Assembly: GCF_002742335.1 (NCBI RefSeq)
Contig: NZ_MDGR01000007.1
Coordinates: 4,406,501 to 4,470,500, forward strand
From: Reichenbachiella sp. 5M10
Lineage (GTDB): Bacteria; Bacteroidota; Bacteroidia; Cytophagales; Cyclobacteriaceae
Reading direction: 5' to 3'
DNA: 64,000 bases
Shown: piece by piece, positions 30,961 to 48,412 of the stretch
Numbering within the stretch: position 1 is the stretch's first letter
Layout of the letters: each line of letters begins with the position of its first letter
The notes under the pieces: generated by a model
Databases searched by the model: none
Told to the model about the DNA's origin: nothing
The model's input: the letters and a program-made list of their open reading frames with translations, nothing else
Position numbers and translations under genes: made by a program

Positions 30961-33900
30961 TTAGTGAGTCAACAGGATACGCTGTACCATATGATGGCCG
31001 TCAGTGATGACCTGTATCAGGTAGACACCACTAGTATATTGTCCAGAAGGCACCCATGTATACTGGTGCGTGCCTGGATTTTGTGGGCCATCGTGCAACG
31101 TCAGCAATGGTCTACCATATAAGTCGATTATCTGCACTTGGAGCGGGCCATTAGAGAGTGTCTTTATGGATACTGTCATCTCTTGGCTGAATGGGTTGGG
31201 GTAGGTGAGTACTTGAATGTTTGTAGGCTCAGTCACATCGAGTATGACGCTGTTGGCTTCTCCAGGGTTGCTATCGTTGAGTGCATACCAGCTGCTTGCT
31301 TTGGTGTTGTCGTAGTTGGGGTTTTGGAGTGCCAGCGAAGCGCCTTTGCCATCGGGTGAGGAGGGCCATGGGGCTACCGATTCGTAGCATACCTCTTCGG
31401 CGAGGTTGCCGTCTGCATCGAAGATTCGGACACACTCGGCTTCATTGCCCAATCCGAAATCAAAATCCCCCACTGTAGGGATATTGCCCTCGTAGTGGGC
31501 TGAGAAGTTTTCTACACTGCGGCAGAGTATCAAGAAGCCTCCCGCGGCTAGTGTTGTTTGATCTGGAACCGTAAAGATGTGATCGTCCTCTCCATCCTTC
31601 ATCACCCAGCCACTGAGGTCTAGGGTTTGGCCACCCTTGTTGTAGAGTTCTACCCAGTCCTCTATGTCTGGATCGTCTGCGGATTTGTAGAATATTTCAT
31701 TCACGATCAGGTCATTGAGCGGATTGTCTACCTCTTCGAATACTGCAGTAATTGTTGTGTTCTCGGTCAGGGTAATGTGGGTTTGCTCGTCGGTCTCGTC
31801 TATCCCCTCCCATCTGACAAAACGATGACCAGGTTTGGCAATAGCCGTCAGAGGAACGGGTACATTTCTGAAATACTCTCCTGTCCAGTTGGCTTGATCG
31901 ATGGTCAGCGTGCTGAGCTGGACAGATCCATAGCTATTGTTGTTGATCTCAACAGTGACCGAAACGGATTGACCGACCGAGAGTGTAGAACTGACGATAT
32001 TTTTCATCACAGCAGGTCGCTTCTGAGCAAAGTCACGCATGACATCCGCACGCTCCTTCCAGTAATTGTAGTCTCCATACCACCGGTTCATGTGGGCTTG
32101 GATTTCGTTTTCGATAGTGGCGATTTTCGCTTCCAGATTTTCACTGATATTGGCAGGGAGCCAAGTTGTGTTGAGTTGATCAGCGATGGTATTGACGAAC
32201 TGATGCTTAAAGCTGTCGTTGGTCATCAGCCTGCGGAGGATGAGTGTAGACCAGGGGGGATTGGGCCAGTCTGGTCCGTTGGATGCCAGTGCAAAACTCA
32301 GCGTATTGTTGCTGTGATCATTTTCTTCCCAAATGCCAAAACCAAAATCAGTATCATAGGCAATCCATCGCCATTTGGCTGTATCATTGGCTTCTCGCCA
32401 GTATTTGATGTTGTTGCCGGGCCAGTCCGTATTGTTGATGAATATGTTGGCACTCTGATAGTAGATGAAATTTTGGATATCTATCTGAGTAGCGATATAG
32501 GCTAGGTCTTCATCTGTGATAGTGCTGTGGTTTTCGAGGTATTGGACGAGTGCAAGGTAGTGCGCTTCGTCCCCATGAACAGGTATCCCTGAGGTTTCGA
32601 GCATTTCGATCTCGTCACTGTCTACATCGTGGTTGTCGGCGAGGAAATGTTCGTTGATTTTCTCACGCACGTTGTGGATGCCCCAGTACTCACCGTTGAT
32701 ATAGAGCACTGCGGGTTGGTATCCTTGTTTGTCTACACTTTCGTGAAAAAGTGACGTGTTGAACCCATCTCTTAGCATGGTGTTGTTCCAGTCGTTACCG
32801 GAGTTGCGTAGAACGATACTTGAAAATTCGTCTAGGTCTTTTTGATCGAAGAGCTCGTACTCGATAGGTCCGTCTCCGTAGGATTTTCTGAAATGTATGG
32901 CGAGGGACTTTTGGTCATTGCCCCGGCTGTATGCGCCGAATATTTTGGCCCCTGCATGCGCAGAAAACGCAATGTCTCCGTCGGTATCGATCATAGTGAG
33001 GTGTACGGGTTTTTCCCAGTCCTGCCAAAAATTCGACCCAAAATAGGGAAAGTCGTTCTCTGCGTTGGGGCCTTTGACATACATCCCCGTCGTGGGATCA
33101 AAGAAGTCGTCATGATCCACGATCAGGGATAGTACGGGTATCTCATGGCTGATGTTGATCATATAGGAAGCCGACGAGATCGGACCCGCCAAGGTGTTAG
33201 GAGCCAGTACTCTGGCACGGATGACGGTACTATTCGATACGGTGATCGCGGTGCTGTAGATAGCATCGGTATCCGTCGGTTCGCTACCGTCTGTCGTGTA
33301 GTAGATCGTGCCTGCCACGTCCTCGGTGTTCATCTCTACGGTGACATTGCCTTGGTAGAGGCCACTTGGTTGGGCGAGTGTCACCTCGCCCGCGATGGCA
33401 TCATAGGCGGTCGTGTTGTTTTCTGTTCCAGGTGTAGCTTCTGCAAAATAGTGTAATTCGTCAGATCCTGATAAGCGACCGATAGAGATCCCAGCGCGGA
33501 GCGAACCGGTGTAGAGCGTATCGATAATTTCCTGTACACTGTTGCGTAGAAACAAAGAATCGCCCGACGAAGAAATTTTGAAGTCCGTATGAAAACTGTT
33601 TTGGTAAAGGGAGATGTCGTCGGAGATCACTCCGGCATGTGCAGCGGCTGTACTGCCCAGCGTTAAGATAGGAATGATCGTCAGGTCAGAAGATCCCGAA
33701 CCAGCGTTGTGCAGTTGGATGGCCAGGAGATTCTCTCCCTCCACCAACAGATCACTGTGATCGGATACATCGTAACGTTCGGGTGCTCCACCGTGGTACA
33801 TGGTCGCTTCGCGCAACGCTGAACTTTCGTCAAAGGCTGGCGGAGTACCTGTCAGTCCTGAGCGAGCGATCTCTGTCCCATTGAGATAGGCAACAAAACC

Positions 33901-34464
33901 ATCGTCATAGTCAATATCAAGGAGTAGACGGTCTATGGATGCAGCCCCATCTACTGCAAAGGTCTTGCGGAGGTAAACAGCGTTAGTCGCCTCGATGATC
34001 GTCTGGTCGTCATCGTCTCCATAGCCGATACTTGTTGGGCCTTCTAACCAGCCCGATGCATCGAAGCTATCGCTGATCCATTCGCTACTCGGCTCTGCAG
34101 TCGGCACGAAGTATTGCCAGGTGTCTCCCTGATCGATCACGGTGCGCCAGTAGGTCGGAGGGGTTTTGCGGTCTTTGTCCGAGGCAAATACCAGCAAGTA
34201 GCCCCCAGCTGCGAGTTCAAACTCGGGGAAGGTCCAAAAGCTATCAGGGGTGGAGCTATCTGAGACTCCGTAGCCCGAGAGGTCAATAGAAGCATCGGTC
34301 GGGTTGTAGATTTCGAACCAGTCTGAGCTTTCGCCATCTTCGTCGTAGATGGTCTCGATGTTGGAGGCCATCGCTTCGTTGAACTGTAGCCCTTGAGCAG
34401 AGAGGGTCTGTGTCGTGAGTAGAGCGAATCCTGTTACTATCCAAAATTTAGTCATAGCTATCAT
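30961..34464 (-). CDS. Large CotH-kinase surface protein with T9SS sorting domain
   Basis: A 1167-residue exported protein. Order: signal peptide ending SAQ; lamin-tail (LTD) domain at about 26-100 (SSDWFEIYNPTDASIDLSGY); jelly-roll-like region to about 275; chitobiase-type beta domain 355-435 (GTIYYTTDGSEPT); CotH domain about 440-800 with YINGEYWGIHNVREK and a W-x-W-I-x-YDTDFGFG segment near 700; InlB-like repeat (GHRFVRWEGI); second LTD near 910-1045; and a T9SS type A sorting domain from about 1085 (YPNPFSQEMTV). CotH proteins are atypical protein kinases first known from spore coats. It is the last gene of the five-gene operon, 16 bases after tolC. Confidence 0.9.
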   Translation of the reverse strand: MIAMTKFWIVTGFALLTTQTLSAQGLQFNEAMASNIETIYDEDGESSDWFEIYNPTDASIDLSGYGVSDSSTPDSFWTFPEFELAAGGYLLVFASDKDRKTPPTYWRTVIDQGDTWQYFVPTAEPSSEWISDSFDASGWLEGPTSIGYGDDDDQTIIEATNAVYLRKTFAVDGAASIDRLLLDIDYDDGFVAYLNGTEIARSGLTGTPPAFDESSALREATMYHGGAPERYDVSDHSDLLVEGENLLAIQLHNAGSGSSDLTIIPILTLGSTAAAHAGVISDDISLYQNSFHTDFKISSSGDSLFLRNSVQEIIDTLYTGSLRAGISIGRLSGSDELHYFAEATPGTENNTTAYDAIAGEVTLAQPSGLYQGNVTVEMNTEDVAGTIYYTTDGSEPTDTDAIYSTAITVSNSTVIRARVLAPNTLAGPISSASYMINISHEIPVLSLIVDHDDFFDPTTGMYVKGPNAENDFPYFGSNFWQDWEKPVHLTMIDTDGDIAFSAHAGAKIFGAYSRGNDQKSLAIHFRKSYGDGPIEYELFDQKDLDEFSSIVLRNSGNDWNNTMLRDGFNTSLFHESVDKQGYQPAVLYINGEYWGIHNVREKINEHFLADNHDVDSDEIEMLETSGIPVHGDEAHYLALVQYLENHSTITDEDLAYIATQIDIQNFIYYQSANIFINNTDWPGNNIKYWREANDTAKWRWIAYDTDFGFGIWEENDHSNNTLSFALASNGPDWPNPPWSTLILRRLMTNDSFKHQFVNTIADQLNTTWLPANISENLEAKIATIENEIQAHMNRWYGDYNYWKERADVMRDFAQKRPAVMKNIVSSTLSVGQSVSVTVEINNNSYGSVQLSTLTIDQANWTGEYFRNVPVPLTAIAKPGHRFVRWEGIDETDEQTHITLTENTTITAVFEEVDNPLNDLIVNEIFYKSADDPDIEDWVELYNKGGQTLDLSGWVMKDGEDDHIFTVPDQTTLAAGGFLILCRSVENFSAHYEGNIPTVGDFDFGLGNEAECVRIFDADGNLAEEVCYESVAPWPSSPDGKGASLALQNPNYDNTKASSWYALNDSNPGEANSVILDVTEPTNIQVLTYPNPFSQEMTVSIKTLSNGPLQVQIIDLYGRPLLTLHDGPQNPGTHQYTWVPSGQYTSGVYLIQVITDGHHMVQRILLTH

Positions 34465-34480
34465 GTTCTTTTTAGTCGAA

Positions 34481-35716
34481 TCAATTGCGGTTGATTATAG
34501 GTTGGAAGTCTCGGGAAAGGTAGTTGATCAGAGGGCTGTTGGCAAGTAGGCCTTTTTGGTCGAGGTATTCGATGAAGGCGATCCTGATTTTCTTTTCCAG
34601 CTGGGCCAGCTCCATGTCCAAATCTAGGTGGTAGTTCTTCAATTTAGACAATTCGGTCCAGTCTACTGCTATGTTGGCATTGACCTGGATCTTTTGTGCA
34701 AGGGCTTGGCGCTGGCGCAACATTTCGTATTGTGCTATCCAAGCGTCTAGTTGGAGGGTGTTGAGTTTGGATTCGTTTTGTACGAGGCTTTTGGTAGCCT
34801 CTACTTTGGCAGCTTCATCGATGAGCTTGACCCGGTCGCGGTTGAGCTTTGGTTTGTCCGGGTTGACGATGGGTAGGCGTATCCCCACCTGAAAGCCCAA
34901 GTGGTCGTTGATGTCAGCGCCACGTTCGGTATCGATGTTGCCTTGGATGTAGCCAATGTTGCTGCGGGCTTCTGCTTTGTCGATTTTGAGCATTTGCTGG
35001 TTGAGAGCAAGCTCTTGTTCTGCTTCGATGATGGCTAGGTTTTGATGGTCGGCTAGCGCAGTACTCGTGAGGTAGTCTTTGATCTGAGCTACTGTGATGA
35101 GATGATTTGTATCTATCGTGAGGGTGTCGGAGATACCATAGTCTAGCCCGATGTAGCAGCGTGTGACAAGGCTTTGTGTTTTGATTTCCTCGTACTGAAG
35201 GAGATGCTTGGTTTGGTTGGATTGGAAGACGATGATGTCTTTGAGCTCCATGCCTTGTTGTGCGTTGTTTTGGAGGATTTTTTCTTCCAGCTGGATACGT
35301 TCGCTCAGGTACTTTTCTTGCTGGGTCAAGTCTATCAGGTCGATGACCATGAGGTAGCGGTTTTTGAGCGCTTCGTTGAGGACGATCTGGTGTTTGGTGG
35401 TGAGGCTCTCTAGATGTTGGTTGTAGTAGATTTTGTTGGCTTTGATCTCAGCGGGATTGGTGGGTGATAGGCGTAGACGGTACTCGTTGAGTGAAGCGTT
35501 GGCGTCTTCACTACCGACGCGGAGTTCGACACGGTTGAGCCAGGGCGAGTTGTAGTTGTTGTCGCTGAGGAACTGCTTCTGCGCTTGGTATCGCTCCAAT
35601 GCCTGATCTTCTAGCGCCGTGGCTAGGTAGCCTTCTATGGAGAAGGTCATTTGGCCGTGTGCCTGATAAGTGATGGCGTACATACCTATCAACAAAAGAA
35701 TCAAGTAGCGCATCAT
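34481..35716 (-). CDS. TolC family outer-membrane channel protein
   Basis: A 411-residue protein with a signal peptide (LILLLIGMYAITYQAHG). Long amphipathic helices and repeat symmetry (about residues 80-200 and 260-400) match the TolC/OEP alpha-barrel fold, with an N-proximal VELRVGSEDANASLNEYRLRL strand region. TolC trimers form the outer-membrane duct of tripartite exporters. Its gene overlaps the HlyD gene by four bases, so the pair is translated together. It is divergent in sequence from the second TolC-like gene at 47 kb. No pump gene of the ABC, RND or MFS type is present in this operon. Confidence 0.85.
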   Translation of the reverse strand: MMRYLILLLIGMYAITYQAHGQMTFSIEGYLATALEDQALERYQAQKQFLSDNNYNSPWLNRVELRVGSEDANASLNEYRLRLSPTNPAEIKANKIYYNQHLESLTTKHQIVLNEALKNRYLMVIDLIDLTQQEKYLSERIQLEEKILQNNAQQGMELKDIIVFQSNQTKHLLQYEEIKTQSLVTRCYIGLDYGISDTLTIDTNHLITVAQIKDYLTSTALADHQNLAIIEAEQELALNQQMLKIDKAEARSNIGYIQGNIDTERGADINDHLGFQVGIRLPIVNPDKPKLNRDRVKLIDEAAKVEATKSLVQNESKLNTLQLDAWIAQYEMLRQRQALAQKIQVNANIAVDWTELSKLKNYHLDLDMELAQLEKKIRIAFIEYLDQKGLLANSPLINYLSRDFQPIINRN

Positions 35717-36723
35717 TTCAGTTTTACGTAGACTTTTTCCCCATGGAGGAAATTACTTTGGTCGGGGATTTTGATGAAAATCTCTCGACCGTACATCGGT
35801 AGTTCTTGGTTGATTTTGAGCCGTGAGGGATATTCGATGATGCGTGATCCGATCTCGGAGATGGTACCTGATACGTGGTAGGCTCGGTTGGTTGACTCGA
35901 CAATGACGGATTGACCGGTGTTTAGTTCTGCATTTTGACGCTCGTTGATCAAGGCGCGGATCACAGAGGGGTCGTGTGCATAGATGGTCATCAGCGTGGT
36001 GAAAGGCGAGGCGAGTTCGTCCTGCTCGATGAGGATGTTACCGACCGTACCGTCTTCTTTGGCGACTTGGTAGAGTTCGCTTTCTTCTTGCTGGAGCAGC
36101 ACCAGTTGATCGTCGTATTGCTTCATTTCATTTTCGGATTCTTTGATTTTGAGCTCATAGAGTGTGTTGAGTTTTTTCTTTTTCAGCTGGTATTGCTGTT
36201 TGGCATGGCTGATTTCTTCGCGGAGCACTTCGATACGGAGTTGGACATAGGAGCGATCTGTGGAGGTATTGCCACTTGGGCTGATGTTGAGGCTTTCGAT
36301 GCTTTGGGCGATCTCCGCTTGCTGCTGCAGGAGGAGTTTGAGGCGTTCGATTTCGGCCTGATTGTCACTGGTGATGAGGTCTACGTCCATCTGTGCCAGG
36401 TCCATCTCATGTTGTTTTTCGATCTGATAGATGGAAATCTGTGATTGGAGGCGTTCCAGATTATTTTTCATGTTATCCACTTCGAGGAGGAGGTCTTGGC
36501 GCTCGACTTTGAGTAGGGGGTCACCTTTTTTGACTTCCTGGCCTGGAAGGACAAAAATTTCTTTGACGCGCACCGCTTTGTGGTAACTGATGGCGTGTTT
36601 TTGGGGCTCGACCTGTGCTAGGATGGATGTCGTAGAGTTGTAGGATTGAAACGAAACCAAAGCCAACAGTCCACCGATGACAACCCAAAGGACGTATAGG
36701 AGATTTTTTTTGATCAAACTCAT
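35713..36723 (-). CDS. HlyD family periplasmic adaptor
   Basis: A 336-residue membrane fusion protein with one N-terminal membrane helix (residues 8-27). The first lipoyl half contains VRVKEIFVLPGQEVKKGD; a coiled-coil hairpin of about 150 residues follows (rich in Gln, Glu and Leu, LQSQISIYQIEKQ); the second lipoyl half has EDGTVGNILIEQDELASPF, then a beta-barrel ending in KVYVKLK. It bridges the inner membrane to TolC. Start and stop overlap the genes on both sides by four bases, so DUF4956, HlyD and TolC are co-translated. Confidence 0.9.
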   Translation of the reverse strand: MSLIKKNLLYVLWVVIGGLLALVSFQSYNSTTSILAQVEPQKHAISYHKAVRVKEIFVLPGQEVKKGDPLLKVERQDLLLEVDNMKNNLERLQSQISIYQIEKQHEMDLAQMDVDLITSDNQAEIERLKLLLQQQAEIAQSIESLNISPSGNTSTDRSYVQLRIEVLREEISHAKQQYQLKKKKLNTLYELKIKESENEMKQYDDQLVLLQQEESELYQVAKEDGTVGNILIEQDELASPFTTLMTIYAHDPSVIRALINERQNAELNTGQSVIVESTNRAYHVSGTISEIGSRIIEYPSRLKINQELPMYGREIFIKIPDQSNFLHGEKVYVKLK

Positions 36724-37397
36724 AGCTGTGTCAGGTTATCACTTCTTTCCAACTTGATGCTTTCGAATCCCTCTTTGGCTTTGAGCTCGGTGTAGAAGGT
36801 GTCCTTGCTGTGTCCAGTGCTCAGGGTCAAGAAGAATTCGTAGCGGTCGCCACGGCTTCTGCTAGAGACGGAGAGCATGCGGTAGTCTTGGCATTTTTCT
36901 TTCAAGAAATCATGCATGGTTTTCTCAGACGTTTCCGTCAGGAGGAGAAAACCAAGGCTGAACTCCTGATTGAGTTGTTTGCTGCCATAGGGGGAGAAAT
37001 AGAGAATGCCAGCGATCATACAGTAGACCAAAGTCCCCGCTATGGCAATCGAATAGCCATAGACCCCAGAAGCGATCCCGACGGAGAGTGCTGCGAAGAT
37101 GAATATGATGTTTCGTGGGTTTTCTATCCTGAGACGAAAACGCACAATGGCGATCGCTCCCATGATACCGAATCCCGCTGCGACGTTGTTGCCCACAGCC
37201 ATGATGACCATACAGGTCACGATAGAACTCAAGATCATGGCTTGGATAAAATTGCGCGAAAGCGCAGTCCCTTGGCTGGTCAAGTGATACGTGAAGCTAA
37301 TCGCGCTACTCAGCACAAAGGATAGCAAGATAGAAAAGAGTGCTACCTCAAAGGAGGGGAATTCATAGAAGTCCCCGTCAGTCAATACATCAAACAT
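36720..37397 (-). CDS. DUF4956 family polytopic membrane protein
   Basis: A 225-residue protein with four predicted membrane helices (about residues 17-40, 48-70, 93-113, 115-137) and a C-terminal soluble part of about 80 residues. The conserved loop reads GIMGAIAIVRFRLRIENPRN, the DUF4956 hallmark, with a charged RFR pair in the membrane-facing segment that faintly recalls MgtC. In other bacteria DUF4956 genes sit beside CotH and VTC-type polyphosphate polymerase genes; here no VTC gene is seen. It occupies the position an exporter pump would take in front of HlyD and TolC. Confidence 0.88.
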   Translation of the reverse strand: MFDVLTDGDFYEFPSFEVALFSILLSFVLSSAISFTYHLTSQGTALSRNFIQAMILSSIVTCMVIMAVGNNVAAGFGIMGAIAIVRFRLRIENPRNIIFIFAALSVGIASGVYGYSIAIAGTLVYCMIAGILYFSPYGSKQLNQEFSLGFLLLTETSEKTMHDFLKEKCQDYRMLSVSSRSRGDRYEFFLTLSTGHSKDTFYTELKAKEGFESIKLERSDNLTQL

Positions 37398-37471
37398 GCC
37401 CTTAGTAATTATTTTTTGGTAGGCATATCTCTACCCACCATTCACAATGTTAACAAATTATGATGGATAAT

Positions 37472-39499
37472 CTAATTTCTTAACATTTTCGTAACCGACT
37501 GATTTGTCGCCGTACGGACGTGTACAAAATAGACCCCCGGTTGAAGAGCAGTGAGTGTCAAGGTGGCCGAGGGACTATGGGGCTGCATCATGAAGACTAC
37601 CTGGCCGTTGAGGTTGGTGATGTGGAGTTCCGAGATGTCTTCTTGGGCTTGGACGTGGATTGATCCTGTGCTTGGGTTGGGGTAGAGCAGCACCTTGTCA
37701 CTGCTTTTTTTTTCGCCCGTCGATAGCGGCACAAAGTCCACGTCCTTGGTGCGTATCCAATTACTCGCGACATTGTTGTCACTGTTGGGATCACTGAGCT
37801 CTAGGTAATAGCCACTGCCATCTGCATCAGGCCAGTCACCTTCATCGCTGTAGGTCACTTCGTCGATGGTATTGCCGTAGGCATCTAGGAGCTGGATACG
37901 TTGACCGCCGTTGGATAGACTTCTGTAATACTGATCGTCAGCTGCCAAGCCATATTTTTGCTCGTAGATGCTGGCGTTGCTAGCGAGTGTGGTGGTAGCT
38001 CCTGCTGCGAGTGTACTCTCTGCAAACTGATAGACGAGCCCCGTCCCTCCAAAGTAGACGCCCGTCAGATCGACTGTTGTGCTGCCGTTGTTGAGGATTT
38101 CGATGAACTCTAGTTCTTTGCTTTCCACCGGGTCTTGGTCTTCGGGATTGTAGTGGATTTTGGTGATGACGAGTGGAGGAGTGGAGACTGCTGCACAGGC
38201 ACTGTAGTCGCCCAACTCTGTGGTCATCCAGGTGATTCTCTCGGAGAGAAAATCTTTGATCTGTGTGATGTGCTGGTCATGATCGACAATGGTACCCCAG
38301 CGTGCCTCTTCGCGAATGGTAGCCTCGCTGATTTCTGCGACGATTTCATCGATACGGGTATTGAGACGAGTCTCGTTGAGCGGCTGGTCGGGAGTAGTGA
38401 GTTCGTTCCAGCGTTTAGATAGGTAGCAGCGGTAAGTGTCGTCCTCGTAGAGATCAAGCCAAAACTTGGAACCGACATTGTCGCCATTGTCAAACTGCCA
38501 TATATCTGGTTTGCTTCTGTCCAGTCCCCAAAAACGGAGATCATTGTCGAAGGTCAAATTCAGATCCCAGATCGGTCCTGCACGTAATTTCCCCATCTTG
38601 TCCTTGTGAAAGTAAGTGCTGTACTGGTAGGCATCCGAATTGGACGACAGCTCATTGATCAGCATAAAGTCGATGAATGAAGGTATGTCGATGAGAGAGG
38701 GGTAACCGTCGGCCTTATCGCTATTTTGATTGCGAGAGGTACTCGCCAGTTGGATGAATACTGATTCGATGTAGGAGGTCTGGGTATTGGTGGCGTCTTC
38801 GGGTTTGGGTACGACATGGACATAGTCTACGTTTTGACCTGTGTTGGTAGACATACTCCATGCGAGGGGGTCGTCATCTGCTCTGTCTGCCTGGGTGATA
38901 TAGCCACCACTGAGGTCAGGTTGTGTCGCAGCGGATTCCTCTATTTGGTCTATGTCTACCCGGTTGTCATCTGCTTTAATTTTTTCCATCAGGATGTATA
39001 GGCCGTTGTAGGATCCGTTGAGGATAAGCTCGCAGTATCGCGTGCGGGGGGCGTAGTTGCCCAGCTGACGAGAAAGCTCGTAGCAGAGGTAGTCTCGGAT
39101 GAGCGAACTGTCATAGGCAATCCCGCTCAGGATCCAGTCGTTTTCTTTGGGCATATCGAGGAGGCTGACATTGTCTTTGTCTGAGCCATCTGTAGTATAG
39201 GTGGTGAATCCGTATTGCTTTTTCGCGAGGGATTGTGAGCTGGAGCCGCGAACTTCTATTTTGATTCGGCTATCAAAGTCTAGGTAATCGTCCGTGTTCT
39301 GATCATTGAGATAGTTTCTTTCTCCCTCGCCTCGATAGATGATTTTCATATCTGCCCAGACTTTGGGTTCGTCTGGGATCGTCTGGTCATTGTCGGTATC
39401 GACAAGTACGATGGGGAGGTTGCTATCGGTGAAAGTCTGCGCCATAGAGGTGCAGCACATCGCCCATACGGCGAATAGTAGTAATGTAAATCGTTTCAT
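37472..39499 (-). CDS. CotH-kinase surface protein with T9SS sorting domain
   Basis: A 675-residue exported protein and the first gene of the operon. The signal peptide ends near TSMAQ. The CotH domain spans about residues 25-430, with KIEVRGSSSQSLAKKQYGF, YDSSLIRDYLCYELSR, LILNGSYNGLYILMEKIK and GPIWDLNLTFDND near 306-318 (the metal-site region; the second Asp of the usual D-x-D is Asn here, as in many Bacteroidota relatives). An LTD domain lies at 430-560 and a T9SS type A sorting domain at 600-675 (LYPNPSTGSIHV). It should be displayed at the cell surface. DUF4956 follows 74 bases downstream. Confidence 0.9.
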   Translation of the reverse strand: MKRFTLLLFAVWAMCCTSMAQTFTDSNLPIVLVDTDNDQTIPDEPKVWADMKIIYRGEGERNYLNDQNTDDYLDFDSRIKIEVRGSSSQSLAKKQYGFTTYTTDGSDKDNVSLLDMPKENDWILSGIAYDSSLIRDYLCYELSRQLGNYAPRTRYCELILNGSYNGLYILMEKIKADDNRVDIDQIEESAATQPDLSGGYITQADRADDDPLAWSMSTNTGQNVDYVHVVPKPEDATNTQTSYIESVFIQLASTSRNQNSDKADGYPSLIDIPSFIDFMLINELSSNSDAYQYSTYFHKDKMGKLRAGPIWDLNLTFDNDLRFWGLDRSKPDIWQFDNGDNVGSKFWLDLYEDDTYRCYLSKRWNELTTPDQPLNETRLNTRIDEIVAEISEATIREEARWGTIVDHDQHITQIKDFLSERITWMTTELGDYSACAAVSTPPLVITKIHYNPEDQDPVESKELEFIEILNNGSTTVDLTGVYFGGTGLVYQFAESTLAAGATTTLASNASIYEQKYGLAADDQYYRSLSNGGQRIQLLDAYGNTIDEVTYSDEGDWPDADGSGYYLELSDPNSDNNVASNWIRTKDVDFVPLSTGEKKSSDKVLLYPNPSTGSIHVQAQEDISELHITNLNGQVVFMMQPHSPSATLTLTALQPGVYFVHVRTATNQSVTKMLRN

Positions 39500-43236: not shown

Positions 43237-43920
43237 ATGTCTACAGTACATATTCAGATCGGAGAAAAATATTTTAACAAAGATCCTCAATCCACCGAGT
43301 TGGGGAGAAATATTGTCTCGGAGAGTATTCAACTTCTCGATCAGTTAGGGTTTGAGGAATTTACATTCAAAAAACTAGCGAACAAGATCGGGTCTACAGA
43401 AGCATCGATCTACCGTTATTTTGACAACAAATTAAAGTTGTTGGTGTATTTGACTTCATGGTATTGGGCATGGATGGAGTATATGATTGACTACAAAACA
43501 CACTTTATAGAAGACCAAAGTCAGAAACTCAAAGAAACCATCAAGATACTCTGTCATGCGGATCAAAGCCTTTTTAGTATGGGGCTGCCAGGTATCAAAA
43601 CCTCGGTGCTCAAACGTGTGGTGGCCAGTGAGTCTGACAAAACCTATTTGACCAAAAAAGTGGATGAGATCAACAATGAAGGTTTGTTCAAAGGGTTCAA
43701 AGATCTGTGTCACAAGATCGCATTGGTGGTTCGAGGTTTTAATCCAGATTATGCCTACCCACACGCTATTGTCAGTACGATTTTGGAGGCATCACATCAG
43801 CAGGTGTTTTTTGCTCAGCATTTGCCTTCACTGACAGAGATTAGCAAAGACAGTGAAGTGAGCATAGATCATCAGGTGTATCATTTTATAGATCAACTAA
43901 TTTTCAAATTGCTTCGCTAA
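43237..43920 (+). CDS. TetR/AcrR family transcriptional regulator
   Basis: A 227-residue TetR-type repressor. The N-terminal helix-turn-helix lies at residues about 42-68 (FTFKKLANKIGSTEASIYRYFDN is its core). The C-terminal ligand/dimer domain is all helical and lacks a recognisable substrate signature. It stands first in the operon with an ABC protein, HlyD and TolC (13 bases before the ABC start), so it most likely represses its own operon and responds to a compound that the exporter would handle. A promoter overlaps its start codon, leaving no room for an untranslated leader. Confidence 0.9.
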   Translation: MSTVHIQIGEKYFNKDPQSTELGRNIVSESIQLLDQLGFEEFTFKKLANKIGSTEASIYRYFDNKLKLLVYLTSWYWAWMEYMIDYKTHFIEDQSQKLKETIKILCHADQSLFSMGLPGIKTSVLKRVVASESDKTYLTKKVDEINNEGLFKGFKDLCHKIALVVRGFNPDYAYPHAIVSTILEASHQQVFFAQHLPSLTEISKDSEVSIDHQVYHFIDQLIFKLLR

Positions 43921-43933
43921 AAGAACAATCCAA

Positions 43934-45667
43934 ATGAATAGTAACATCAATATGCAAAGCACTCATGATTCCCCCGAGATCAAGTTGACTCCTATCAGGC
44001 GCTTGTTTCGGATGCTGTCTCTGGACAGCCGAGAGATTTTCGTCATTTATGCTTATGCCATTTTCAATGGTTTGATCAACCTGTCTCTCCCATTGGGTGT
44101 ACAAGCGATCATAGGTTTTGTGATCAGTTCGGAGTTTTCTGCCTCATGGGAGTTATTGATTTTTATCGTGGTGATAGGTGTAGCAACTACAGGAATTATA
44201 CAGATACTACAGCTATCTCTGACCGAGCTTTTGCAACGTCGGATTTTTACCCGTGCATCTTTCGAGTTTGCTTATAGAATCCCACGATTTAAAATGGAGG
44301 CCATTTCTGGCTTTTATCCACCAGAGTTGATGAACCGGTTTTTTGATACGCTCAATATCCAAAAGGGTCTGCCTAAGATACTGATTGATGCTTCCACATC
44401 CGTACTTCAAATTCTCTTTGGGCTTATTTTATTGTCTTTTTACCATTCATTTTTCGTCTTCTTTGGGATGGCGCTGTTGGGGATGATTTCTTTGATTTTT
44501 TTCATCAGTGGGCCAAAGGGGCTCAAGACGAGCAATTTAGAATCTAAATATAAGTATCAAGTGGCGCATTGGCTCGAAGAGCTGGCACGTGTGATGGCGA
44601 CTTTCAAATTGGCAGGTAGGACCAACCTACCCAGTGACAAAATGAATTACTATGTCACCAACTATCTGAAATATAGAAAGCAGCATTTTAATATCCTGAT
44701 ACTCCAGTTTTCTAATATCGTAGCGTTCAAAACGATCGTCACAGGAGGACTACTCATCTTAGGGAGTATTTTGGTGATCAATCAAGAGATTAACCTAGGG
44801 CAGTTTGTCGCTTCAGAGATCATCATTCTTTTGGTACTCAACTCATCAGAAAAACTCATCCTCACCATGGAAACGATCTATGATGTACTGACAGGACTAG
44901 AGAAGCTCGGTCAGGTCACCGATATAGCTACCGAGAGTGAAGAGGGTATTGATTTGGACGAAATCACACAAGGAAAGGGGATTTCGTTGGAGCTTTCGGG
45001 ACTTACTTACCAATACGCGGGTCAAACCAAACCTACCGTTGAGGGGGTGGATTTGAAAGTGGAGGTTGGCGAAAAGGTCTGTATCACAGGCGTCAATCAA
45101 TCAGGAAAATCTACGTTGCTTTCGCTCATTTCTGGATTGTACAACGACTATGAGGGATCAATTCATTTCAACGGGATTCCGCTCGGAGACATCAATATCA
45201 TGAGCTTTAGGTCGGTGATCGGCGATAACCTCGGCCTACAGGACATCTTCTTTGGTACGCTGGAGGAGAACATCACCATTGGCAAGCAAGATATCAAAAT
45301 GGAAGACATGCTATGGGCTATTGAGCAGGTAGGACTCGGGGAGTTTTTCAAACAACTGCCCAAAGGGCTGAGTACCATGATTCAGCCAGAAGGGCAAGGC
45401 CTCTCCACGAGTATCAAGCAGAAGATTATACTGGCACGAACCCTCTCCGAAAAGCCTAAACTCATCGTGATGGACAATACCTTGCACGGACTGGACTATG
45501 AAGACCGTAAGCGTATCAGTACGATATTGACTAACCCGGAGGCTAGCTGGACGCTACTCACAGTCACGAGTGATCCGCTGATGCTATCCAGGTGCGACAA
45601 AATCGTGACTATGGAAAAAGGAAAAATTGTAGATATAGAAATCCAAAATAAAAAATCAGATGCTTAA
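43934..45667 (+). CDS. ABC half-transporter with degenerate ATPase domain
   Basis: A 577-residue fusion of a six-helix membrane domain (about 30-310) and an ABC ATPase domain without a peptidase domain. Walker A is intact, GVNQSGKST at 386-394. The signature motif is replaced: GLSTSIKQ at 489-496 in place of LSGGQ. Walker B ends MDN (Asp514, Asn515), so the catalytic Glu is missing. The H-loop His is absent (TVTSDP, 543-548). A D-loop-like GLD is kept. The Q-loop also looks altered. This suggests ATP binding with little or no hydrolysis. HlyD overlaps its end by eight bases. It may act as a conformational partner or regulator. Confidence 0.9.
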   Translation: MNSNINMQSTHDSPEIKLTPIRRLFRMLSLDSREIFVIYAYAIFNGLINLSLPLGVQAIIGFVISSEFSASWELLIFIVVIGVATTGIIQILQLSLTELLQRRIFTRASFEFAYRIPRFKMEAISGFYPPELMNRFFDTLNIQKGLPKILIDASTSVLQILFGLILLSFYHSFFVFFGMALLGMISLIFFISGPKGLKTSNLESKYKYQVAHWLEELARVMATFKLAGRTNLPSDKMNYYVTNYLKYRKQHFNILILQFSNIVAFKTIVTGGLLILGSILVINQEINLGQFVASEIIILLVLNSSEKLILTMETIYDVLTGLEKLGQVTDIATESEEGIDLDEITQGKGISLELSGLTYQYAGQTKPTVEGVDLKVEVGEKVCITGVNQSGKSTLLSLISGLYNDYEGSIHFNGIPLGDINIMSFRSVIGDNLGLQDIFFGTLEENITIGKQDIKMEDMLWAIEQVGLGEFFKQLPKGLSTMIQPEGQGLSTSIKQKIILARTLSEKPKLIVMDNTLHGLDYEDRKRISTILTNPEASWTLLTVTSDPLMLSRCDKIVTMEKGKIVDIEIQNKKSDA

Positions 45668-47018
45668 TATATCTCAGAACCCTATCGATCGGGACGAAGT
45701 GTTGAAAAACCAGTCTGCCTATCAGGAGGTGATGTCAAAGTCTGCCTCTAGACGATTGGTCTATCTACTGACAGGGTTGTTTGTTTTGGGTATAGTGATC
45801 CTTTTTTTGCCATGGACGCAGAACATCCGTGCCACGGGCAAACTCACAACCCTACGTCCCGAAAACAGAGAGCAAGCCATACACTCGATGATCTCTGGGA
45901 GAATAGAGGCCTGGTATGTGAGCGAAGGACAGTTGGTCAAACAAGGAGATACGATCGTGTTTATTTCGGAGATGAAGTCTGACTACCTAGATCCCCAACT
46001 CGTGGAACGCTCTACCAACCAAACCAATGCCAAAAAGGCGTCCATAAGTGCCTACCAAGAAAAAGCACAGGCACTTGCTGATCAGATCAGTGCACTGACG
46101 CGCAATCGAAGGTTGAAAATCGAACAGGCCGAAAACTACTATAACCAAGCCCGCCTCAAAGTAGTGTCGGATAGCATTGACTTTCAAACCGCTGTGGTCA
46201 ATTATGAAATTGCGCAAAAACAGTTTGATAGACAGCAGAAACTCTATGACCAAGGGCTGAAGTCTCTCACTGAGCTGGAGCAGCGCAAGCAGAAGCTCCA
46301 AGAAGCACGCTACAAACAGGTGTCGGTAGAGAACAAGTGGTTGGCGAGCAAGAACGCCTTCATCAATGCAAAACTCAACCTGTCAATCGTACGCAATGAC
46401 TTTAGCGAAAAAATAGCCAAGGCCAAATCCGACCGTATGTCTGCCTTATCGAGTGCTCTCGAAGCGGAGGGGGCTTTCAACAAACTCTCCATACAGCAAT
46501 CCAATTACACGAGGCGATCGGGCTTTTATTATATCACAGCGCCTCAAGATGGGTATGTGACGCGCGCATTGATTACAGGGATAGGAGAAACGGTAAAAGA
46601 AGGCGCACCCGTATTTAGCTTTATCCCTGCTAACTATGAGTTGGCCGTAGAGATGTTCGTACGACCGATAGATCTGCCGTTGATCCAAGAGGGGCGCAAA
46701 GTACAGCTTCAGTTTGACGGTTGGCCCGCACTGGTGTTCAATGGTTGGCCAGGCATGTCCTTTGGCACCTTTACTGGTCGTATAGTAGCTTATGACAAAG
46801 CCGCCAGTTCCAATGGCAAGTTTAGGGTACTGGTCGCACCAGATCCAGAGACTGAGCCTTGGCCAAAGCTCCTTCGTCTCGGGTCGGGTAGCTATGGGAT
46901 TGCATTGTTGAAAAACGTGCCAGTCTGGTACGAGCTATGGCGAGACCTCAACGGATTCCCTCCTGATTTTTACATGGAGCCTGAAGGAGCCTCTAATATT
47001 AAAAAGACTAAAAAATGA
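45660..47018 (+). CDS. HlyD family periplasmic adaptor of the ABC operon
   Basis: A 452-residue membrane fusion protein with one membrane helix (about 35-52). The first lipoyl half has GRIEAWYVSEGQLVKQGD, a long coiled coil spans about 125-290, and the second lipoyl half has APQDGYVTRALITGIGE, followed by a beta-barrel with VQLQFDGWPALVFNGWPG. The extended C-terminus WYELWRDLNGFPPDFY is unlike HlyD from Gram-negative type I systems and typical of the Bacteroidota branch. It bridges the ABC protein and TolC. It overlaps the ABC gene by eight bases and the TolC gene by four, so all three are co-translated. Confidence 0.92.
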   Translation: MLNISQNPIDRDEVLKNQSAYQEVMSKSASRRLVYLLTGLFVLGIVILFLPWTQNIRATGKLTTLRPENREQAIHSMISGRIEAWYVSEGQLVKQGDTIVFISEMKSDYLDPQLVERSTNQTNAKKASISAYQEKAQALADQISALTRNRRLKIEQAENYYNQARLKVVSDSIDFQTAVVNYEIAQKQFDRQQKLYDQGLKSLTELEQRKQKLQEARYKQVSVENKWLASKNAFINAKLNLSIVRNDFSEKIAKAKSDRMSALSSALEAEGAFNKLSIQQSNYTRRSGFYYITAPQDGYVTRALITGIGETVKEGAPVFSFIPANYELAVEMFVRPIDLPLIQEGRKVQLQFDGWPALVFNGWPGMSFGTFTGRIVAYDKAASSNGKFRVLVAPDPETEPWPKLLRLGSGSYGIALLKNVPVWYELWRDLNGFPPDFYMEPEGASNIKKTKK

Positions 47019-48412
47019 CCCCTCTACGTTACCTTTTTTTCTTGGTCTTATTGGTTCCTACGCGATCCATGGCACAGACAGATCCTTCGACACTTTTGAC
47101 GTTGGATGAGTTCTATCTGCTGGTTCAGAACCACCATCCGATGGCCAAACAAGCCAATCTGATGACGCAGAAGGGTGCATTGACAGTCAGTCAAGCTAGA
47201 GGAGCTTTTGACCCCAAACTCATGTCAGATTTTGACAAAAAAACCTTTGATGGCAAAAATTACTATGACACTTGGGACACATATGTCAAAATCCCTACCC
47301 TGCTCAACGTGGATTTCAAAGTAGGATACGAAAGAAACAGCGGGATTAATCTAAACCCGGAAAATAGTGTGCCCACGGATGGGTTATACTATGCAGGCAT
47401 ATCAGTGCCTGTGGGGCAGGGATTGATTTATAATCAAAGCAATATCCAACTCAAGAAAAGCAAATTCGAACAAGAGAGCATACAGAATCAAGCAAGAAAG
47501 GTCCTCAACAACCTCTATCTAGATGCCAACTATGCCTACTGGTGGTGGTACGAAAACTACCAGAAACGAGAAGCGGTCAATGCCAATTTGCAGCTCATCC
47601 AAGTACGGTTCGAAGGCATACGTCAGGGAGTGTACAACGGTGACAAGGCGGCCATTGATAGTACAGAGATGCTCATACAAGTACAGCAGTGGCACAACAA
47701 TCTCAATGAAGCCGAACTCAATTTGCAAAATAGTTTGCTGCTGTTGCAAAATTTCGTCTGGTCAGACAGCATAAGCTTACATGCTTTGATCCCAAGACAT
47801 GACACCACGACACAAAACGAAAATCTGGATAGCTATTTGGACTGGGCTATTGCCAATCACCCAGATCTCAAAAACCTCTCGATTGAGAGCAATATTCTTG
47901 AGCTAGATCGCAAGATGAGTGCATCTCAGGTTTTGCCTGACTTCACTGTGGATTATAACGTTTTGCTCGCAGGACAAGAGACCGAGTCTCCGCTTTTTTC
48001 CAACAATTACAAAATGGGCTTTCAATTTGCCTTTCCTCTTTTGACCCGAAAGGAACGCTCTAAACTGAAAATTGTCAAAATCAAACAACAGGAGTATGAT
48101 TGGAAAATCAAACAAAAGAACCGTGAGATCATGAACAAGATCCAACAGAGTTATAACAAGGTGTATACCCTTCAAGATATGATCGAACAGCAGCTCGCCA
48201 TGCAGATCAACTATGAAAGCATGCTGATCGCTGAGCAGTCTAAATTTGACAATGGAGAGAGCTCGGTATTTTTGCTAAACAGTCGTGAAAACAAGAAACT
48301 ACAAGGAGAAATAAAACTCATAGAGCTCCAGGCCAAATACAATAGAGCCATCGCAGAGCTCAAGTGGGCGACAGGAAAATTGAACGAAGAAGTGCAAGAG
48401 CTAATTCCATAA
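47015..48412 (+). CDS. TolC family outer-membrane channel of the ABC operon
   Basis: A 465-residue protein with a signal peptide (FFLVLLVPTRSMAQ). It shows the long helices of the TolC/OEP family (for example ANLMTQKGALTVSQARGAFDP and ISVPVGQGLIYNQSN in the strand region, and a C-terminal helix with AELKWATG). It would form the outer-membrane duct with the HlyD protein. The ATG overlaps the HlyD stop by four bases. No clear terminator follows. It is only distantly similar in length and sequence to the TolC-like protein at 34.5 kb. Confidence 0.9.
   Translation: MTPLRYLFFLVLLVPTRSMAQTDPSTLLTLDEFYLLVQNHHPMAKQANLMTQKGALTVSQARGAFDPKLMSDFDKKTFDGKNYYDTWDTYVKIPTLLNVDFKVGYERNSGINLNPENSVPTDGLYYAGISVPVGQGLIYNQSNIQLKKSKFEQESIQNQARKVLNNLYLDANYAYWWWYENYQKREAVNANLQLIQVRFEGIRQGVYNGDKAAIDSTEMLIQVQQWHNNLNEAELNLQNSLLLLQNFVWSDSISLHALIPRHDTTTQNENLDSYLDWAIANHPDLKNLSIESNILELDRKMSASQVLPDFTVDYNVLLAGQETESPLFSNNYKMGFQFAFPLLTRKERSKLKIVKIKQQEYDWKIKQKNREIMNKIQQSYNKVYTLQDMIEQQLAMQINYESMLIAEQSKFDNGESSVFLLNSRENKKLQGEIKLIELQAKYNRAIAELKWATGKLNEEVQELIP

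Follow-up and report, generated by a model that had tools for sequence, protein, structure and literature searches.

The 64,000-nucleotide stretch of the marine bacterium Reichenbachiella sp. 5M10 analysed here (contig NZ_MDGR01000007.1, positions 4,406,501 to 4,470,500; hereafter the window) carries a five-gene operon in which a protein with DUF4956, a domain of unknown function, is encoded beside an HlyD-type adaptor and a TolC-like channel protein, between two CotH genes and with no pump gene. The DUF4956-HlyD pairing recurs across Bacteroidota, in most loci together with a VTC polyphosphate polymerase, and the window belongs to a clade that is VTC-less except for its basal member. We tentatively propose that DUF4956 provides the inner-membrane component for a tripartite conduit, one that began as a VTC-born polyphosphate exporter and was kept with CotH after VTC was lost, a reading that we regard as quite possible, if short of probable.

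The operon comprises five open reading frames (ORFs) at 30961-39499, in the order CotH2-DUF4956-HlyD-TolC-CotH1 by the ORF listing:

37472..39499, minus strand: CotH2, 675 aa, with a CotH kinase domain, a lamin-tail domain and a type IX secretion system (T9SS) sorting domain; signal peptide judged by eye
36720..37397, minus strand: DUF4956 membrane protein (PF16316), 225 aa, with the MgtC-like motif region GIMGAIAIVRFR that holds the invariant R86 and R88
35713..36723, minus strand: HlyD-type membrane fusion protein (HlyD_3), 336 aa, with a single N-terminal hydrophobic helix
34481..35716, minus strand: TolC-like outer-membrane channel protein, 411 aa, assigned from an AlphaFold2 model and Foldseek
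30961..34464, minus strand: CotH1, 1167 aa, with lamin-tail, chitobiase-C-like, CotH kinase, InlB-like repeat, lamin-tail and T9SS sorting domains in that order; signal peptide judged by eye

The DUF4956 and HlyD genes, and likewise HlyD and TolC, overlap by 4 bases, and the flanking gaps measure 74 bases (CotH2-DUF4956) and 16 bases (TolC-CotH1). An earlier interpretation made from the letters of the window (the sequence-only reading) had described this layout, overlaps and end spacings included, and the ORF coordinates agree with it. The closest named relative, Reichenbachiella agariperforans, has the same five genes in the same order (locus L022). A Bacteroidota-type promoter pattern is neither matched upstream of the operon nor over-represented in the window, and sigma-70 and terminator scans did not rise above shuffles.

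Conservation of the cassette and its linkage to VTC

Conservation was assessed in a sample of 395 Bacteroidota genomes with a profile built from eight DUF4956 proteins, which matched in 80 of them. A strong set of 65 matches in 58 genomes (E 1e-30 or better) was retained; surroundings were read for 64 of these loci, the 65th being the window itself. An HlyD gene lies within three genes of DUF4956 on the same strand in 62 of the 65, the exceptions being L102, L103 and L105. A simple ORF caller missed the DUF4956 gene in L062, L085, L095 and L119; a six-frame search found HlyD adjoining DUF4956 in the first three, and L119, a partial match (E 2.9e-11), stands outside the 65. Three gene orders link HlyD with DUF4956, and in the loci read DUF4956 is linked to HlyD or VTC except in L103, L126, L127, L132 and the partial L119. 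Since the order is conserved across the phylum, it is not a product of chance. Nearer the window, a match was obtained in 8 of 59 genomes of a relatives sample, including 2 of the 7 other genomes of the window's genus, and all five family-relative loci fetched (L145-L149) show DUF4956-HlyD-TolC. CotH follows TolC directly in L148, L149 and L024, and lies upstream in L146, which is from the window's genus. The module is widespread in the phylum and patchy among close relatives; the conserved order expected by the sequence-only reading extends far beyond close relatives for DUF4956-HlyD, and its patchiness nearby qualifies that expectation.

VTC lies within 5 kb of 44 of the 65 strong DUF4956 genes (for this count the DUF4956 position in G010:C10 was taken from a separate search), and HlyD is also present at 42 of these 44 genes of the window's DUF4956 type. 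Seen from the polymerase, 64 VTC matches were found in 56 of the 395 genomes; 56 of the matches lie within 5 kb of a DUF4956 match and seven more proved adjacent on reading, so that 63 of the 64 adjoin DUF4956, and the remaining match is a fragment of 87 codons. Within the phylum DUF4956 therefore seems to be a near-obligate partner of VTC. CotH lies within three genes in 17 of the 65 loci (the window included). The VTC profile matches yeast VTC4 at E 7e-21. Fifteen columns are invariant over 23 VTC proteins, among them those aligning with K200, R264, R266 and K281 of VTC4 (a numbering that assumes the aligned lysine to be K200). The Bacteroidota proteins, at about 250 aa, comprise no more than the catalytic domain.

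The 62 HlyD-bearing loci among the 65 fall into two forms, 42 with VTC and 20 without. A TolC gene was recognised by hidden Markov models in 19 of the 20 VTC-less loci, the twentieth (L101) having an unnamed 416-aa gene in that place; together with the HlyD count, this bears out the predicted co-occurrence of DUF4956 with HlyD and TolC. Counted by genome, VTC is present in 41 of 62 with the cassette, and the other 21 show the order DUF4956-HlyD-TolC or HlyD-DUF4956-TolC, TolC not being named by the models in G159 (L101). Three further loci, L121, L122 and L124 (from an order sample outside the 65), read HlyD-VTC-DUF4956-TolC, and L079 (G208 contig 24) carries CotH-DUF4956-HlyD-TolC-VTC and a lamin-tail domain gene in one run, the only locus read with all parts.

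In the DUF4956 tree, in which the bootstrap had not settled, the order DUF4956-HlyD-TolC is confined to one 28-row clade (support 99/97) with the window's relatives inside. Its basal row is L079, with VTC, and the other 27 rows lack VTC; one of these, L132, has no HlyD and a very long branch, and its placement is unsure. The sister is a 13-row clade of order VTC-DUF4956-HlyD (100/100). Both clades, again as sisters, reappear in the HlyD tree, where L079 is basal in the first (SH-aLRT 94). The rest of either tree consists of the order HlyD-VTC-DUF4956, which DUF4956 does not resolve as a clade. Six pump-associated HlyD proteins group together, weakly supported (52), outside the 62 that are associated with DUF4956. 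DUF4956 and HlyD descend in parallel: of 69 pairs, 68 entered a distance correlation and 62 the HlyD tree (seven near-copies were left out), and the correlation reached 0.91, as high in 0 of 2000 permutations, a value that shared species history inflates. The "noVTC" labels in the DUF4956 tree are wrong for L078 and L111, where the ORF caller missed VTC, so the six label changes counted are inflated. Locus L023, whose record is titled as a Thalassovita (Pseudomonadota) metagenome-assembled genome, groups with Reichenbachiellaceae in both trees and is probably a mis-assigned contig.

Some loci show further regularities or damage. In the f43 loci (L075, L081 and others) a short-chain dehydrogenase gene follows DUF4956-HlyD-TolC, overlapping in most, and DUF6580 and YceI genes precede the cassette in an order fixed in most. 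The DUF4956 gene of G400 (L064, 9635-10333) has an in-frame TGA, and the HlyD gene of G328 (L080, 7890-8947) is split over two frames; these are either decayed genes or assembly errors. Neighbouring genes were scanned for 127 of 131 chosen genes, drawn from 202 same-strand neighbours, keeping the best 25 of 192 families and omitting 14 near-copy f43 loci and genes longer than 1300 aa; of four genes omitted for size, three were scanned separately and one, in L076, stayed outside the scan. Among the matches listed, 4 of the 127 neighbours are SdiA-regulated/phytase-like. One such protein follows HlyD-VTC-DUF4956 in L065, those of L066 and L070 being guessed from position and look, and these proteins perhaps act on the cassette product. 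Carbohydrate-binding Cthe_2159 proteins stand directly beside HlyD-VTC-DUF4956 in L058 and L060, and glycoside hydrolase genes, again among the matches listed, lie beside some VTC cassettes.

Absence of a pump gene from the cassette

No pump ORF is found in the window's operon by the ORF listing and a Pfam scan, no search for unlinked orphan pumps having been made, and no pump gene lies inside the DUF4956 gene run at any of 73 HlyD-bearing loci. The cassette thereby lacks the inner-membrane pump of the ATP-binding cassette (ABC), resistance-nodulation-division (RND) or major facilitator superfamily (MFS) type that belongs to tripartite efflux and type I secretion. A survey of the surroundings covered 746 called genes within 6 kb of the 73 loci, 50 of them with five or more hydrophobic segments. 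Twenty-eight of these 50 were scanned, plus L115, and the remainder (f43 BrkB and DUF6580 genes, L118, L122) resemble scanned ones by start and length. Pump-type genes were found near 12 of the 73 loci, and no kind recurs in a fixed place among the 12:

Same strand: MacB-like permease in L058; MFS protein in L067
Same strand: RND protein with its own HlyD in L115; fusion of RND and outer-membrane channel (OEP) proteins with its own HlyD in L146
Opposite strand: MFS-type genes in L064, L069 and L111; RND genes in L086, L117 and L118, the last by its likeness to L117
Opposite strand: ABC exporter in L123; MacB-like permease in L147

An ABC, RND or MFS gene is accordingly not the usual partner, in agreement with the sequence-only reading: such genes occur within 6 kb in 12 of 73 loci, four of them same-strand and none in the gene run. 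Two in-line ABC proteins, in L104 and L112, were rejected as pumps for want of a membrane domain and are ABCF proteins by our own reading. A 304-aa membrane protein in the gene run of L061 gave no family match. What looks like an ordinary, complete ABC exporter lies in the window itself, on the strand opposite the operon and roughly 4 kb away from it (43237-48412, plus strand): a gene for a TetR-type regulator, named from weak matches, precedes genes for a 577-aa ABC protein with a Walker A motif, for HlyD and for an OEP/TolC protein.

Compared with known tripartite exporters, the cassette likewise encodes adaptor and TolC-fold channel in consecutive overlapping genes, the adaptor being nearest EmrA; it differs in having DUF4956, a protein without Walker A, in place of the ABC, RND or MFS gene.

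The gene products and what they suggest

The window's DUF4956 protein matches PF16316 at E 6.5e-9 (36.2 bits against a cut-off of 30.6), over profile positions 19-107 of 169 only, and all 38 HlyD-type members compared match it at E up to 0.1. In sequence the family appears to resemble MgtC. The MgtC/SapB model NF007431 matches 19 of the 38 members at E up to 0.01 and the window's protein at E 4.1e-7, with 29.8 bits far below its cut-off of 214; PF02308 (MgtC) matches 24 of the 38 at E up to 0.1 (best 4.1e-5) and gives no match at that threshold for the window's protein. In about half of the 38 the likeness to the MgtC/SapB family covers the motif region and, by the NCBIfam match, the C-terminal part; unlike that family, DUF4956 is mostly linked to HlyD or VTC. 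Across the 38 proteins six alignment columns do not vary (M1, R86, F87, R88, G107 and G111). By hydropathy the protein has some four membrane segments. Among the loops compared, none is as basic as the RFR stretch, which the positive-inside rule would place on the cytoplasmic side, where VTC would be expected to act. No Walker A pattern is present in the window's DUF4956, HlyD, TolC or CotH proteins. The C-terminal part is predicted to be soluble with a babbab arrangement in a low-confidence model (pLDDT 51); this model, built from four sequences, was too poor for a fold search, and its secondary-structure order serves as a weak hint only. Among solved structures the DUF4956 profile found nothing better than E 0.045, the matches being ACT-like chains and others, and the C-terminal part is weakly similar to the ACT-type chain 2ko1 (E 0.045). 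The "small four-helix protein" of the sequence-only reading thus keeps its roughly four membrane segments, yet the MgtC likeness and the soluble C-terminal part make DUF4956 more than a four-helix gate.

The main rival explanation starts from this likeness: DUF4956 would be an MgtC-like regulator of VTC, CotH or a pump, and HlyD-TolC would work with a pump of MFS, RND or ABC type whose orphan gene lies elsewhere in the genome. The PF02308 and NF007431 matches suit it, as does an HlyD that is nearest EmrA among solved chains, and we count in its favour a paper on Salmonella MgtC, which by its title reportedly promotes phosphate uptake inside macrophages and is said to do so through PhoR. A regulator sits less easily with an HlyD whose gene accompanies DUF4956 in three different orders and whose descent parallels that of DUF4956, in cassettes that contain no pump gene, and on balance we consider this explanation rather unlikely.

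The HlyD protein of the window matches HlyD_3 at E 4.7e-10 and has a hydrophobic segment at 7-25, as expected of the periplasmic adaptor of tripartite efflux or type I secretion; its family profile finds EmrA as nearest solved chain (E 6e-24). The product of the fourth gene is TolC-like, with the predicted fold of an outer-membrane channel. A Pfam scan gave nothing better than 0.04, an NCBIfam scan no match, and the family profile no match among solved chains. The AlphaFold2 model (built from three sequences; mean pLDDT 62.7, moderate confidence) was matched by Foldseek to the CmeC, TolC, OprM and VceC channels with probability 1.00 (best E 4.5e-5, TM-scores 0.35-0.53), and because of this match of folds we take the label to be right. 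A profile comparison with OEP-family proteins gave a probability of 71.5% (E 3.6e-5).

Three such envelope proteins could also form a structural or sensing bridge without transport, in which DUF4956 would signal the state of phosphate or energy in the cytoplasm and the surface kinases would be held in position by the bridge. The window's operon indeed encodes no energy source, and a babbab C-terminal part weakly like 2ko1 would suit ligand sensing; that arrangement, however, is read from a low-confidence model, and the TolC-fold channel and the polymerase present in 42 of the 62 HlyD-bearing loci argue for the passage of a substrate. We regard a bridge of this kind as improbable.

Both outer proteins match PF08757 across the whole profile (E 4.4e-55 and 2.5e-45) and carry a T9SS type A sorting domain (TIGR04183, 43.8 and 36.8 bits, cut-off 23), which upholds their earlier description as T9SS-sorted CotH proteins, the signal peptides being judged by eye. 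The CotH family profile was needed to reach the solved CotH 5jd9: it matches this chain at E 1.3e-46, and phmmer searches started from individual CotH proteins either gave E 0.51 or missed it. The aspartates equivalent to D228 and D251 of Bacillus subtilis CotH are present in CotH2, 23 residues apart, and aligned and kept in CotH1. The available part of PMC7821199 calls the D228Q and D251A forms of the B. subtilis protein inactive, and describes the ATP source of the spore-coat enzyme as an unanswered question. Both window proteins are hence predicted surface kinases with their catalytic aspartates intact, and they are the only two CotH matches in the genome, whose completeness is 98.6%.

CotH occurs in 61 of 62 genomes searched directly. 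Where DUF4956 lacks HlyD, CotH is in the same gene run in 11 of 14 loci. In two of the 14, L120 and L128, a DUF2490 protein, weakly like outer-membrane barrels, takes the place of TolC, and in L103 (9715-12501) DUF4956 is followed by a phosphate-selective porin O/P-like protein and CotH, with neither HlyD nor VTC nearby; a combination of DUF4956, an outer-membrane protein and CotH thus recurs with differing outer-membrane parts. Such linkage bears on the possibility that an exporter of an unrelated small molecule merely shares an operon with CotH, both being envelope functions. The f43 cassettes, in which CotH is unlinked, are consistent with this, as are the Cthe_2159, SdiA-regulated/phytase-like and glycoside hydrolase genes beside some VTC cassettes. 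The 17 loci of 65 with CotH within three genes, its presence somewhere in 57 of the 58 such genomes and the 11 of 14 HlyD-less loci are hard to square with mere co-localisation, to which we give little credence.

A proposed conduit for a phosphate-rich substrate

We propose that DUF4956 occupies the pump position of a tripartite exporter, in which HlyD would span the periplasm and the TolC-like protein would open the outer membrane; we infer both the physical assembly of the three proteins and the outward direction of transport. The conduit would have arisen together with the VTC polymerase, which would polymerise phosphate from ATP on the cytoplasmic side while the growing polyanion threads through DUF4956; no further ATPase would be needed, because polymerisation itself would supply the drive. 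VTC would then have been lost in the window's clade after TolC had joined the cassette, and the conduit retained, in the window alongside two T9SS-sorted surface CotH kinases. In this VTC-less form the drive might come from a gradient, from proton-motive force or from a polymer made by PPK1. The substrate would most likely be phosphate-rich, either PPK1-made polyphosphate or a nucleotide or other phosphate donor, and may be used by the surface kinases or bound by the proteins that they phosphorylate; the guess that it serves the CotH kinases is made because the genes are linked. In favour of the conduit we count the HlyD gene beside 62 of the 65 strong DUF4956 matches, the association with a VTC that keeps the VTC4-aligned residues, the distribution of TolC over the two forms, the agreeing trees and correlated distances, the enrichment of CotH, the invariant R86 and R88 and the coupling described for yeast VTC. 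A more specific version, in which VTC-DUF4956-HlyD(-TolC) is a polymerisation-driven polyphosphate exporter, CotH uses the polymer as donor, and the window is a VTC-less derivative exporting another donor, seems to us unlikely. The earlier proposal that DUF4956 fills the pump position is partly supported by the conserved order, the pump-less cassette and the DUF4956-HlyD-TolC co-occurrence, with its emphasis now shifted to VTC.

Several known systems show parts of this arrangement. The available part of PMC7112168 describes CotH, a polyphosphate polymerase, DUF4956 and DUF4832 as accessory genes beside Gram-positive Pel operons. Like the window, this cluster joins CotH with DUF4956, and its polymerase is present in many relatives of the window's cassette; that part of the account does not name HlyD or TolC, both of which the window's cassette has. 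The window, for its part, has neither a polyphosphate polymerase nor DUF4832 by a Pfam scan of the operon, and no Pel gene among the five. In yeast, according to the available part of PMC9911596, the VTC complex makes the polymer and moves it through a basic membrane channel in one coupled process, and basic residues line the channel that receives the newly made chain. The relatives of the window's cassette similarly link a VTC catalytic domain with a small membrane protein bearing invariant arginines; they differ in that the membrane part is a separate MgtC-like protein and that HlyD and TolC would extend the path across the envelope, and the window itself lacks the VTC catalytic domain altogether. 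The literature searched, largely without subscription papers, gave no account joining DUF4956, a polyphosphate polymerase and CotH with HlyD or TolC.

The proposed conduit has to be weighed against a number of observations that speak against it. VTC gave 0 matches in the window's genome, where the sequence-only reading had suggested looking for it, and 0 in six family relatives, so for these the polyphosphate link is by descent only. The window's genome has one PP_kinase match; this family was rejected as a discriminator, being present in 66 of 68 genomes. TolC was recognised in just 1 of the 42 VTC-bearing loci (L079, by Pfam OEP), so that in most of them the conduit must borrow a TolC or stop in the periplasm; L079's own TolC escaped the TolC models, and further divergent TolC genes in VTC-bearing loci may have escaped them too. 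VTC was lost more than once: L062 (G030) and L123 (G115) have HlyD-DUF4956-TolC in genomes without VTC, L123 standing outside the 28-row clade and L062 not being in the DUF4956 tree, and these losses mean that loss is not special to the CotH-linked form. In the VTC-less f43 cassettes CotH is found only elsewhere in the genome, and the enrichment of CotH in genomes with a strong DUF4956 match (57 of 58, against 78 of 337 others) was counted with relatedness ignored. Relatives of MgtC are known more for regulatory roles than for channel activity, and the DUF4956 model is poor. Pump-type genes do lie within 6 kb in the 12 loci listed, four of them on the same strand, and since EmrA, the nearest solved relative of HlyD, is the adaptor of an MFS pump, an orphan pump elsewhere could be the partner.

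With 63 of 64 VTC matches beside DUF4956 and HlyD at 42 of 44 VTC-linked genes, the destination of the bacterial VTC product becomes directly testable. The pairing of DUF4956-HlyD with a polyphosphate polymerase suggests an unrecognised export route for a phosphate-rich substrate, and the conduit suggests a route by which a phosphate donor could reach extracellular kinases. If it is true that the conduit works without a pump, it would represent a new way to energise an HlyD-TolC path.

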